A stretch of 33,046 nucleotides of DNA from Priapulus caudatus. Lineage: Eukaryota; Priapulida; Priapulimorpha; Priapulimorphida; Priapulidae. The position numbers and the translations under genes were made by a program. The stretch covers positions 493,408 to 526,453 of the forward strand of contig NW_014577077.1 of NCBI RefSeq assembly GCF_000485595.1. Reading direction: 5' to 3'. Shown here piece by piece: positions 9,073 to 33,000 of the stretch; position 1 is the first letter of the stretch, and every line of letters begins with the position of its first letter. The notes beneath the pieces are model-generated. The model made no database searches, was not told where the DNA came from, and saw only the letters and a program-made list of their open reading frames with translations.

Positions 9073-9862
9073 AAGTGCCGTGGAGCGACAGCGCTCATCT
9101 AACGTCTACTGCGGTGACTCTGTGGTGGAGTGGTGGGATTCTAGTAAACCCTGTTAGTCCCAAATGTGTTCACATACAACGCCGAAACAGTGGAAGCACA
9201 GGGATGGTATCAGGAACCTTCTCAAAGGAATGTTCGTTGGATCGTTATGAAAGTTGCCACGAGATGGCAGCTACGTTTAAGTGTCTTCAGATTAAAAGAT
9301 GGAAGCTCCATCGTACGTAGTAGCAAAACTATTTGCAAGACAGAATAGGTAAGCACGTCATCCATTTACCTACGCAAGCCTACAGGCTAAAATAGAAAGC
9401 TGCCACCTGTAACTAATTAACGCAGGCAAAAACTACACAGTACCACCACCACATGCACTGGCACTGGCCACTGGCAGTGGCATACGTTACATGTAACACA
9501 CTGACAGTACAGAATGCCATAGAAATTATACGATTTAAGGAGCATAAACCTTCTTCAGCCAAATTTAGCTCTTGAAATTTTACTGTGACATTGTAGCCTC
9601 ATACATCCAGGCATGTATAGATTCTACTAGCAACCCGGCCAGTCAAATTCTTTCTAACAGTAAACAAATCCATGTTTAACCCTCCTCTTGAGGGTCAAAA
9701 GGTTATCTGACACTTACTCTTCGCATGTCAGCAGGAAGTAGATTTCATGGTTCTTTCAATAAAGCCATAAAAATGCTAGGTCACCGCTGAAACAGAAAAG
9801 TTTTTCAATCGCTCCGTCAGACCATTTCCTCAGAAAATGTCTAAAATCTGCCCTGTGCCCAT

Positions 9863-9882
9863 TGACCTTTGACCTGTGACCT
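9863..9882. promoter_or_regulatory. Triple TGACCT half-sites in copy A
   Basis: TGACCTTTGACCTGTGACCT holds three TGACCT half-sites with one-base spacers. This is the DR1 arrangement bound by RXR/HNF4/COUP-type nuclear receptors in animals. It sits in a dispersed repeat, so use as an enhancer is only a possibility. Confidence 0.4.
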
Positions 9883-16090: not shown

Positions 16091-16215
16091 CTGACTTATC
16101 TGTAGTGTCCTGCTGCCTACGATGCTAAACTTGTCCATGGGCATGTAATCTAGGACTCCGTTCTGGTGGTCCTGGTAGCACTGAATGTTCAATGTTATGT
16201 CATCATGAAAGAACT
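16091..16215 (-). CDS. Internal exon of an unrecognised beta-rich protein
   Basis: Among the best-supported exons in the window. On the minus strand TTTTCTTTTTCTTTTAG is a textbook polypyrimidine acceptor, and CAG|GTAATT is a good donor. The 125-base exon starts with two bases completing a codon (phase 1) and ends at a codon boundary. It encodes 41 residues plus the split codon, including DDITLNIQCYQDHQNGVLDY and MDKFSIVGSRTLQISQ: alternating hydrophobics with one Cys, typical of a beta-sandwich segment. An alternative acceptor two bases further (AG|TTC) would make it phase 0-0. The family is not recognised; ZP-like and other extracellular folds were considered and not established. It may follow the 29.8-kb exon, which ends in a compatible phase. 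Confidence 0.6.
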
Positions 16216-16960
16216 CTAAAAGAAAAAGAAAACAAGGGTTTGTCGTGACAGTCAACACGTTATCTCGTTTACATAATGAAGCAGGAGATACATTTGCCCG
16301 CGAGGAGGAGGAGGAGCAGCTGTTTAGATGGGCGCACATTCTCGTTCGTTCTCTACTTAATCACCATGATCTCTCATCTATAGCTGATATGAGGGCGGCT
16401 CACAATGAAAGGAAGGAAAATATGAGGGGTCTATGCGTTCTTGGGGTTCAGTGCAAGTTAACTTCTTTGTTAATAGGTTTTTGCAGAACATTTCGATTAC
16501 TCATTCAAACAAAAGTAAATACTGGTCCCCCCATGTTCATGAGGCCATATATGATATATATTATTTGCCACTAGGCACTATATATCTATATGATGTTCCT
16601 ACGTCCATATTAAAGGAGAAAATAATAAATAACATTGTGCCTGGGATGTGACAGTGTGACAGTTGTAGAAGGGTACAGACAGGGGTACAGTATAACTCCA
16701 CTCTGTAGTTAATATCAGCGAACATTCGCGTTAGATAACAGCATTAGGGCGGTAAGATAGGACTCGATTCCGAGTGCCACTTCTCGCAGTAGCGCTTATG
16801 GAGAAATCAGCAAGCGCCTGCACTGTTTGCTCTTGCAATTTTCCGAAGTATCACACCGAGTTCGCTCGGCAATCATGACAGGTTGCTAAGGAATCTGACA
16901 GCTAGCCTACAGGCTTTGCACGGTCACTGCATCGGGATCCCACCCGCGTCAACGGCGTAC
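16216..16960. other. Probable intron or flank, no gene seen
   Basis: Upstream, on the minus strand, of the 16.1-kb exon. It contains a short GGAGGAGGAGG patch near 16303-16315 and plus-strand frames with no splice or domain support. Confidence 0.4.
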
Positions 16961-20984: not shown

Positions 20985-21713
20985 ATATATATATATATAT
21001 ATCAAGAGCGTATAAAGAAGGAGAGCGTACAACGGTGAAATGCTGAAACCATGTTGCAGTATTAGTTGAATTAATAAACTTTCGCCGTTTTATTTTTGCA
21101 GTATGATCAGCTGTCTTACCTTGTTAATATAAAACAAACCGCATGTCCCTACGATGCTCCTACGCCGAGATAATAAGCGGTGAAAATCTGGTATTTTCGC
21201 CAAAAACCGACTCGAGATCAGTGTTTACTGCGACTGTCTCTCGCTTTGAGATAACTTCGGGAAACCTCGCGTGTTTCCGTCAATGATCGATTGACAGATG
21301 GAATGAATGACGTCTGTTATTGATTGTCATAGTGATGACCCCCACCTGTGCCTACCTCACGCTGGATGTATGGTAATCTCTGTAGTACAGACGTGAGTCA
21401 GCGCTACCATGGCGCTGCACAGCGGCGACCGGAAGCAATACACTGGCCACAAAGCGAGAGACTGATCTCGAGTCCGTTTTCGGCGAAAATACCAGATTTT
21501 TACCGCTCCTTATCTCAGCGTAGGGGCATCGTAGGGACATGCGGTTTGTTTTATATTAACAAGGTAGGACAGCTGATCAATAATACGTCAAAGAATCGTC
21601 AATAAAACGGGGAAAGTTTATTAATTCAACTAATACTGCAACAGGGTTTCAGCATTTCACCGTTTTACGCTCTCCTTCTTTATACGCTCTTGATATATAT
21701 ATATATATATATG
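20985..21713. mobile_element. Foldback element with long inverted arms, about 730 bp
   Basis: The sequence from 20985 to 21247 is found again inverted at 21451-21713 with high identity and small indels. Both outer ends are (TA)n followed by TCAAGAGCGTATAAAGAAGG. The arms share GGTGAAATGCTGAAACC, AAACAAACCGCATGTCCCTA and CTCGAGATCAGT. About 200 bases lie between the arms, with no obvious coding capacity. A non-autonomous DNA transposon of foldback or MITE type is the simplest reading. The TA-repeat flanks hide any target duplication. Frames at 21348-21605 (plus) and 21352-21540 (minus) are by-products of the arms. Confidence 0.85.
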
Positions 21714-22770: not shown

Positions 22771-22782
22771 ACTATTCAATGC

Positions 22783-23132
22783 GGGTGTTGCTATCCCCCG
22801 GGCGTGGAGTGAGAGTCACGTGATACAGTTGACGTATACTTCAAAACGTATACGTATACGTTGACATACACGTAACTCCAACACTAAACTTAACACTAAA
22901 TAACTATATCTCGGAGCGCTATATGTAGGTGTATATATCCACAAAAATTAATCTATGGTGTGGGGACAGATATCATGATGCAAAAACTCTAACCCTAATC
23001 CTAACCATAACCCTAACCCTAACCTAATACTAATACTAATACTAATGCTAATAGTAATACTAATAATATTAATCCTAATACTAGTGCTGCCACGTTGCGG
23101 TCTCACTCGACGCCCGGGGGATAGCATTACCC
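22783..23132. mobile_element. 350-bp TIR element with 9-bp target duplication and telomere-like repeats
   Basis: The left end GGGTGTTGCTATCCCCCGGG matches the inverted right end (GGGTAATGCTATCCCCCGGG), and similarity continues through GCGT-GAGTGAGA. The element is flanked exactly by the direct repeat ATTCAATGC (22774-22782 and 23133-23141), a 9-bp target-site duplication. TIRs starting with G and a 9-bp duplication fit Mutator-like (MULE) or possibly Merlin-type DNA transposons. The interior contains an 18-base perfect palindrome (22845-22862) and a CCCTAA/CTAATA hexamer array (about 22987-23080). There is no coding capacity, so it is non-autonomous. Confidence 0.85.
22987..23085 (-). repeat. 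Degenerate telomere-like array
   Basis: CTAACCCTAATCCTAACC and ACCCTAACCCTAACC units are followed by CTAATA-type hexamers (ACTAATACTAATACTAAT). This reads as a TTAGGG array, on the minus strand, grading into variant hexamers. It lies inside the 350-bp TIR element. Confidence 0.85.
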
Positions 23133-23206
23133 ATTCAATGCAAGATCATATTTTCGTCCTTGCAATAGCACTGGCATTATTTCCACGTGGTACGTTGCTA
23201 GTCTAG

Positions 23207-24241: not shown

Positions 24242-24586
24242 CCGTAAAGAACACAAGCAATACTTTGCAGCTATGAATTTGAGGATGCATTTAGTGTTAA
24301 TAGTAATTATACGTTCTATGTAAAAAACGCAATTTCACTTCTCACTCGCAAAAATACTTCCATACAAGTGCCGCAGAGCGACAGCGCTCACTGACGTGTA
24401 CTGTAGCCGGGTAGCGAATTTGCGATTCCCAAACCGTATAGCTATGGAAGAAAAATTGAGCAACGTGATTGGCTAGAAAATGTTTTGGACGCGCCCACTA
24501 TCGCACGCACACCATCGCGCATTTTGCACAGGGGCTTATTTATTTTATTTCTTATTATTTTTGGCTAATTTTGTTTTATTTTCGAA

Positions 24587-24646
24587 TTAGGGTTAGGGTT
24601 AGGGTTAGGGTTAGGGTTAGGGTTAGGGTTAGGGTTAGGGTTAGGG
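24587..24646 (+). repeat. Perfect interstitial telomere array, (TTAGGG)10
   Basis: Ten uninterrupted TTAGGG units followed by a partial TTA. It lies within the 557-bp TIR element, so it is interstitial rather than a chromosome end, and it is G-quadruplex-capable. Confidence 0.98.
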
Positions 24647-24680
24647 TTAACTGAGTTCTATATCGACGTGTTTCATATTT

Positions 24681-24755
24681 GTCTCAGTGGGTCAACGCTA
24701 GACCGTTCGCCTCGTGATCGTAAGGTACCGCGTTCGAACGCCATATGTTGTTTTT
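24681..24755 (+). other. tRNA-like, pol III promoter-like segment (SINE head or tRNA relic)
   Basis: GTCTCAGTGGGTCAACGC resembles a D-arm with A box. CGCCTCGTGATCG resembles an anticodon arm, and GCGTTCGAACGCC a T-arm with B box. TTTTT follows about ten bases later as a possible pol III stop. The stems do not pair fully, so a functional tRNA is unlikely. tRNA-derived SINE heads in animals often read this way. Confidence 0.4.
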
Positions 24756-25209
24756 ATTTTCCTCTGCGTTATGTATTTCTTTGTATTTTATTTGTTTCTG
24801 CATTTATTTGTTTTGTAACTTTTGTTTATGTTCTGAATTAAATATATTTCTTTATAATATTAGCTTATAATTTAATATATTAGCTTGTTGACTAATAATG
24901 CGTGTCCTAAAATTTTTCTAGCCAATCACGTTGCTCACGTTGCTATACGGTTTGGGAATCGCAAATTCGCAGCCGGGTATTCTTCTGATAAACTCACTGG
25001 CAACCGAATCAAGAGCACCCTCCCGCCACCGCGTTCGCGCTCATAGCATATATCTAGGATACTACTAACAGATCTAAAATCTATGATAGGCTTTGCTATA
25101 CCGGTAGTACAGTAATAAAGATACACCTGTGTACACGATAATGCTTTCACTAATATTAAAGTGTTATCTATGGATATAGCGTCGGGCGCGAGCGTAACGT
25201 GGTGGTGGT

Positions 25210-25227
25210 GGGAGGAGGGTGGGAGGG
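25210..25227 (+). other. G-quadruplex motif
   Basis: GGGAGGAGGGTGGGAGGG has four G3 runs with loops of four, one and one bases, within a GGTGGTGG context. Confidence 0.7.
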
Positions 25228-25262
25228 ACAGGAGAGGCTCTAATAGGGCAACCGCAGTTCAG

Positions 25263-26225: not shown

Positions 26226-26294
26226 ACCACCACAACAGGTCTTCACGCAATGGCGACGTCGTCCACCGCGCCCCAACCCCCCTGCCCTACATAT

Positions 26295-26645
26295 GTACCA
26301 GCCCCACCCACCTTACATCTGTACCAGCCCCACCCTACCTTACATCTGTACCAGCCCCACCCTGCCTTACATCTAGACCAGCACCACCCTGCCTTATATC
26401 TGTACCAGCCCCACCCTGCCTTACATCTGTACCAGCCCCACCCTACCTTACATCTGTACCAGCCCCACCCTGCCTTACATCTGTACCAGCCCCACCCTGC
26501 CTTACATCTGTACCAGCCCCACCCTGCCTTACATCTGTACCAGCCCCACCCTGCCTTACATCTGTACCAGCCCCACCCTGCCTCACATCTGTACCAGCCC
26601 CACCCTGCCTCACATCTGTACCAGCCCCACCCTGCCTTACACCAG
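26295..26645. repeat. 27-bp minisatellite, 13 copies
   Basis: The unit is CCAGCCCCACCCTGCCTTAC plus ATCTGTA. A multiple-of-three period and no stops keep frames open on both strands: plus YQPHPALHL and TSPTLPYIC, minus GWGWYRCKA and GGAGTDVRQ. One plus frame of 145 codons has an ATG at 26250 and a stop just after the array. Its 15-residue unique tail and the absence of splice signals give no support for a gene, but the array could lie in an exon. Confidence 0.9.
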
Positions 26646-32251: not shown

Positions 32252-33000
32252 GACTCTGTGGTGAAGCGGTGGGATTCTAGTAAACCCTGTTAGTCCCAAA
32301 TGTGTTCACATACACGCCGAAACAGTGGAAGGCACAGGGATGGTATCAGGAACCTTCTCGAAGGAATGTTCGTTGGGATCGTTATGAAAGTTTCCACGAG
32401 ATGGCGCGTACGTTTAAGTGTCTTAAGATTAAAGATAGAAGCTCCCATCGTACGTAGTAGCAACAACTATTTGCAAGACAGAATAGGTAAGCACTCATCC
32501 ATTTACCTACACAAGCCTACAGGCTAAAATAGAGAGCTGCCATCTGTAACTAATTAACGCAGGCAAAAACTACACAGTACTATCACCACCACATGCACTG
32601 GCAATGGCATAAGTTACATGTAACACACTGACAGTACAGAATGCCATAGAAATTATACAATTTAAGGAGCATAAACCCTCTTCAACCAAATTTAGCTTTT
32701 GAAATTTCACTGTGACATTGTAGCCTCATACGTCCAGGCATGTATAGATTCTACTAGCAAACCCGGCAGTAAAATTCTTTCTAACACTAGTAACAGTAAA
32801 CAAATCCATGTTTAACCCTCCTCTTGAGGGTCAAAAGGTTATCCGACACTTACTCTTTGCATGTCAGCGGAAAGTACATTTCATGGTCCTTTCAATAAAG
32901 CCATAAAAATGATAGGTCACCGCTGAAACAAAAAAGTTTTTAAACGCTCCGTCAGACCATGTCCTCAGAAAATGTCTAAAATCTGCCCTGTGCCCCATTG
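32252..33000. mobile_element. Dispersed repeat family, copy C (5' portion)
   Basis: 749 bases nearly identical to 9116-9864 of copy A, with scattered substitutions and one-base indels. Similarity stops sharply at CCCCATTG, just before the TGACCT cluster of copy A. The frame at 32300-32527 has a counterpart at 9166-9348 and belongs to the repeat. Confidence 0.9.

Follow-up and report, generated by a model that had tools for sequence, protein, structure and literature searches.

The window, a stretch of 33,046 nucleotides from Priapulus caudatus, contains a 557-bp, apparently non-coding MITE of probable Mutator type on the forward strand at 24414-24970, which we call the group 1 element. Its terminal 29 bases, GCGAATTTGCGATTCCCAAACCGTATAGC, form perfect terminal inverted repeats (TIRs; left, 24414-24442 on the forward strand; right, 24942-24970 on the reverse strand), and it is bracketed by an exact 9-bp target-site duplication (TSD), AGCCGGGTA, at 24405-24413 and 24971-24979 (both read on the forward strand), the only two occurrences of this 9-mer in the window. 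The inverted similarity extends into longer arms that agree at 79% over 91 columns, TSD included (24404-24494 versus 24900-24979). An array of TTAGGG units lies inside the element on the forward strand (24587-24649), consisting of ten perfect units at 24587-24646 followed by a half unit, and a tRNA-like stretch, bounded by sequences resembling an A box and a B box but not identified as a tRNA, lies at 24686-24742 on the same strand. We use 'telomere-type' for the TTAGGG hexamer, which may not be the host's own chromosome-end motif. None of the open reading frames of at least 120 aa listed for the window falls inside 24414-24970, and the frame at 24938-25258 had no match in the protein family library. 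An earlier note on this DNA had described a short Mutator-like element with clear ends and ten perfect TTAGGG units; the perfect 29-bp TIRs, arms of about 80 bp and exact 9-bp TSD confirm the former, and the tract at 24587-24646 the latter.

A second TTAGGG-carrying TIR element, assigned to family B, occupies 22783-23132 on the reverse strand, 1.3 kb from the group 1 element. It is flanked by an exact TSD, ATTCAATGC, at 22774-22782 and 23133-23141 (forward strand) and contains a degenerate telomere-like array on the reverse strand at 22989-23083 (TRF rows 22989-23064 and 23024-23083). Several other repeats were seen in the window: a long inverted repeat at 20985-21710 that lacks TTAGGG and whose arms, each of about 250 bp, are 90% identical, a dispersed direct repeat at 9116-9864 and 32252-33000 (92% identity over 765 columns), and minisatellites at 1849-2737 (49-bp unit) and 26280-26641 (27-bp unit). 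An open frame at 16209-16571 matched Tweety below cut-off (PF04906, E = 0.00031; 20 bits, cut-off 31.8); a Pfam search of ten window frames gave nothing beyond this match, and a PDB search with one window frame returned no result.

We searched the whole assembly (385,217,808 bases in 2,952 contigs) for further group 1 copies. A 22-base TIR pattern with at most one mismatch had 26 + 26 matches, compared with 0 for the reversed-pattern control, and 22 copies with paired TIRs were recovered (21 including the window copy, plus L111). Five TIR matches (C28:775935, C447, C591, C601 and C2395) lie outside the loci taken, and three divergent loci whose TIRs failed the pairing rule (L029, L035 and L036) are outside the pair count; among these three, a run of two perfect units was present only in L036. 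A search of IMG/VR with the group 1 TIR gave no result. The same assembly contains a COX1 that reads with mitochondrial code 5, the mark of an invertebrate animal, beside nad2-, cox2- and atp6-like frames named by eye, and a second COX1-like stretch (G000 C1568:75493-76781; L109, L110) with several stops in every listed frame, which may be mitochondrial DNA copied into the nucleus or foreign sequence.

Exact 9-bp TSDs flanked 17 of the 22 paired copies and a single mismatch was present in one more, with the remaining four (L012, L026, L028 and L030) showing 2, 4, 6 and 8 mismatches, respectively. Because the TIR matches were absent from the control and 17 of 22 copies carry exact TSDs at the same boundary, the ends of the element are not a chance feature, and the concern that the flanking 9-mer of the window copy might be coincidental falls away: the copies share identical boundaries and differ in their 9-bp duplications. 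The middle five bases of the duplicated sites fit [CG]CNG[CG] in all 18 copies with exact or one-mismatch TSDs, a pattern found at 0.9% of positions in 20 random regions, and position 4 is C and position 6 is G in each of the 18.

Of the 22 copies, 19 measured 495-621 bp and three were longer (L024, 1092 bp; L034, 1070 bp; L111, 1996 bp). The L024 copy (L024:606-1698) is interrupted, by eye, by about 500 bp of apparently unrelated DNA with inverted ends of its own. TTAGGG arrays of 5-20 units, each including at least four exact units, were present in 21 of the 22 copies, and their place was constant, at 0.32-0.43 of element length. Variant units also occurred at matching places in many copies, which together with the near-universal presence of the array marks it as inherited cargo. 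The earlier note had asked whether most full copies carry the array or this locus only, and had suggested that a mobile element with telomeric cargo could spread interstitial telomere sites; the 20 other array-bearing copies with paired TIRs answer the former and the variety of their TSDs supports the latter. The pristine condition of the array, on the other hand, is peculiar to the window copy, in which all ten units are perfect, versus longest perfect runs of 2-6 units in the other 20. This perfection is probably secondary, variant units having been lost through slippage. The one copy without an array, L111:36-2031, has group 1 TIRs and an exact TSD around an unrelated 1,996-bp body with neither TTAGGG nor the core, which shows that movement does not depend on the array.

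A second set of elements, group 2 (L037-L047), resembles the group 1 element only within element positions 122-442, that is, over a core at 24535-24855 on the forward strand of the window. Group 2 TIRs begin GGAAGTGTCTAAACAACCGG, unlike those of group 1, and an alignment of the outer 50 bases of the two was not significant among 78 TIR pairs (4% of shuffles reached its score). The consensus cores, in contrast, were 86.5% identical over 267 columns and 96% identical over 53. Exact 9-bp TSDs, which look AT-rich, flanked five of eight paired group 2 copies, and seven of the eight contained at least one exact TTAGGG. Either the core has moved between TIR families or the TIRs around it have been replaced.

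The flanks of L041 and L015 contained further TTAGGG arrays between inverted repeats, which led us to a wider survey of array loci. The sample comprised all array loci among the first 100 (TTAGGG)4 matches listed, giving 40 regions on contigs C1-C6 only, and inverted repeats were called strong at 40 bits or more. Arrays of at least four units lay between strong inverted repeats at 23 of 40 loci with 600-bp flanks and at 24 of 40 with 800-bp flanks. None of 35 non-telomeric microsatellites did so (Fisher P = 1.2e-8 against 23 of 40), nor did more than one of 60 random positions (P = 7e-11), which were drawn from 20 regions on C1-C4 and scored with 800-bp flanks only. The control microsatellites originally numbered 42; seven were excluded for lying no more than 500 bp from a telomeric tract, and among these seven the one in L084 scored 44.6 bits. 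Among 150 cross-locus pairs of flanks, about 10% reached 34.6 bits and about 5% reached 68.9 bits; this counts against the explanation we prefer, and such high scores arise because TIR families recur.

The 17 array loci below threshold also count against it, and they are of several kinds. Ten (L059, L060, L062, L067, L070, L071, L073, L077, L083 and L085) have a half or the TIRs in common with a family for which a strong inverted repeat or a TSD is seen at another locus of the sample, the left half of L050 is that of L057, and L061 and L079 are repeats of one another and lack a strong inverted repeat. In L064 the only inverted match, of 11 bp, is at background level. The last three, L053 (next to Ns), L075 and L087, belong to no assigned family and weigh on the same side, although L075 falls in left cluster 1 of the array-flank clustering and has a family A element nearby. 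An inverted-repeat scan of 94 kb without selection for arrays found TTAGGG units in both elements detected in random regions (L089 and L097) and in two of four in the window; only the former two are unbiased, since the window was chosen for the finding. Over the whole assembly, (TTAGGG)4 had 1909 + 2007 matches compared with 0 + 1 for the reversed pattern, and a run of at least 20 perfect units occurred at a single locus (C1451:21686-21817). With about 42 arrays among the first 100 of these 3,916 matches, extrapolation gives some 1,600 arrays of at least four units in the genome.

About 12 TIR sequences in all were found to enclose TTAGGG tracts. TSDs of 9 bp accompany six of them (groups 1 and 2 and families A, B, C and D), and family G has TSDs of 8 bp. 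We compared 13 TIR representatives, which were picked by eye, several resting on one or two sampled loci and one (H) being without a strong inverted repeat. Across the 78 pairs, B and J were clearly related (0 of 200 shuffles), and the next-closest pairs (A-C, E-H and group 1-group 2) were not significant among the 78. Some cores and TIRs are shared, so the roughly 12 TIR sequences may not equal as many independent acquisitions. Family A was the commonest, with 2064 + 2111 TIR matches at two or fewer mismatches (about 4,175; control, 0), corresponding to an estimated 2,000 or so copies if most TIR matches pair. Such TIR pattern counts give numbers of ends rather than of checked copies. Its TSDs in 11 paired rows were exact in five, had one mismatch in three and were absent in three. 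Of the first eight exact-TIR family A loci outside the array list, seven carried an array of 3-13 units. Each of these seven arrays contained one exact unit or more, and six contained two or more; L115 had no array.

A profile of the MULE transposase (PF10551) had 46 matches over cut-off in the genome, 40 of them without stops. The 9-bp TSDs and long TIRs, taken together with these transposases, make mobilisation of the MULE type the best reading. None of the 46 matches lies on a contig with a match to the group 1 TIR, the TIR compared, and this counts against it. Changes of module fall at the array. Left module L2 pairs with right modules R2 and R4, and the ends of L060 resemble, by eye, those of family C and its array flanks those of family A. 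In L034, about 700 bp (L034:864-1567) take the place of the core between the right end of the array and element position 427. These contain an open frame of 126 aa whose LicD match falls just short of the cut-off (21.6 bits; cut-off, 22.6), and the replacement is an apparent capture of a gene fragment that starts where the array ends on the right.

Taking these observations together, we consider the element to be a non-autonomous cut-and-paste transposon of Mutator (MULE) type, one of about 12 TIR sequences that carry TTAGGG as inherited cargo (probability roughly 0.75). MULE transposases encoded elsewhere in the genome would move these elements, and much of the interstitial TTAGGG would have been spread by transposition rather than by break repair at each site, with tract length drifting afterwards by slippage. 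At a few loci the tract looks like a weak point, where replication or repair may switch template; such switching could exchange cores between TIR families and sometimes capture other DNA.

The earlier note had also proposed that a tRNA-like, pol III promoter-like segment adjoins the array, and a core derived from a tRNA and moved by retroposition as a SINE would provide a different account of the copies. The segment begins and ends in box-like stretches, at 24686-24698 and 24730-24742, which we take to be an A box and a B box, and is followed by a T5 at 24751-24755; a D-arm-like stretch was also seen by eye in the group 2 alignment. To this extent the proposal is weakly borne out, but the remainder is not. 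ARAGORN found no tRNA in the window, Rfam found none there at its gathering threshold and, at E ≤ 1, none in the element or in the eight loci tried among 39 related ones, and the stretch folded no better than its shuffles (z = -0.36). On ARAGORN, Rfam and folding, we reject SINE or pol III identity. Retroposition is very improbable on structural grounds as well: copies end in TIRs with TSDs of fixed 9-bp length, and exact TSDs still flank L020 and L025, from which the middle of the tRNA-like stretch is missing. A further suggestion, that pol III transcribes through TTAGGG, is unlikely from the layout, because the array, with its last base at 24649, lies upstream of the A-box-like stretch that starts at 24686, and the T5 comes after the B-box-like stretch.

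Arrays could instead have been inserted one by one through telomerase-assisted repair of double-strand breaks, with the inverted repeats incidental or older, a route described for short interstitial telomeric sequences of primates and rodents (PMC7215372). We give this little credence for the sampled arrays, 23 of 40 of which lie between inverted repeats, and for the copied families we reject it, as the group 1 array holds the same place, often with the same variant units, at different target sites. A possible polarity sign of telomerase extension was likewise dropped: when the elements are turned so that the G-rich strand runs from left to right, the array sits to the left of the midpoint in groups 1 and 2 and in most bounded loci of the sample, but arm-to-array distances point to the left arm in about five families and to the right arm in about five others. 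Short tandem arrays are prone to error in assemblies, yet many loci with distinct flanks and target sites, and the near absence of matches to the reversed pattern, leave an assembly artefact a negligible prospect. A stronger competitor is neutral hitch-hiking, whereby short TTAGGG seeds in a few successful MITEs grew by slippage and a few ancestral cores were passed on or had their TIRs replaced, so that the number of families would stem from common descent rather than from repeated gains, and the motif would be without a role. It agrees with the common core of groups 1 and 2, with the related TIRs of B and J and with family A tracts of 1 to 8 exact units in eight copies, as expected from slippage. 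Set against it are the lack of significant similarity among most of the 13 TIR representatives, the several clusters formed by array-flanking halves and the finding that other microsatellites were never between inverted repeats (0 of 35); we regard it as plausible, at somewhat under even odds. A bolder extension of the MULE reading is that the tracts are actively favoured, several unrelated MULE-type MITE families having each gained one because telomere proteins bind to it or replication forks stall there, which would promote template switching, core exchange and re-insertion. This we hold only tentatively and think rather unlikely, and both the route by which the arrays were acquired and a role of TTAGGG in promoting template switching are inferred.

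Several known systems share parts of this picture. MULEs have TSDs of 8-11 bp and long TIRs according to sections of PMC6446971, and the TSD size and long TIRs seen here, like the presence of such transposases in this genome, agree with MULEs and MITEs derived from them. The elements differ in that several families carry TTAGGG cargo and that group 1 has a strong preference for CCNGG-like targets; no autonomous partner was found. Animal Pack-TIRs hold DNA captured between TIRs, and fork stalling with template switching has been proposed for them (parts of PMC8277862). L034 and L111 resemble such capture by Pack-MULEs or Pack-TIRs, whereas what these elements mostly carry is a short tandem array of telomere type, and the word 'telomer' does not occur in the accessible text of that paper. 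Oyster Helentron-type elements carry satellite-like arrays (PMC7492417) and are comparable as mobile elements that disperse short tandem arrays, but here TIR elements with 9-bp TSDs do the carrying, and the repeated unit is the telomeric hexamer. Carriage by mobile elements is named as a possible origin of heterochromatic interstitial arrays in part of a review (PMC6410037). Like short interstitial telomeric sequences, the arrays are short TTAGGG tracts away from chromosome ends; unlike them, they sit inside TIR elements that bring them to new sites. No description of TTAGGG-carrying MITE families was found among the titles and beginnings of abstracts listed, in a literature with subscription journals mostly outside it, or in passages of PMC6947457 and PMC9071541. 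MULEs, MITEs and Pack-TIRs are already known, and what may be new here is the existence of TIR families that carry TTAGGG.

Break repair and chromosome fusion are the usual origins given for short interstitial telomeric sequences. With 23 of 40 sampled arrays inside short inverted-repeat elements, the transposition route becomes countable and datable within one genome. The presence of TTAGGG in several differently ended short elements suggests that transposons spread telomere-like DNA inside chromosomes, and in such genomes a TTAGGG probe may hybridise to transposons whose signal could be mistaken for the scar of a chromosome fusion. Should the motif be favoured, and more than a passenger, these families would be natural experiments on the use of telomeric repeats to a transposon and on whether such repeats act as fragile sites or as sites of template switching, and the interstitial telomeric sequence of this genome would be largely transposon-borne and amplifiable.
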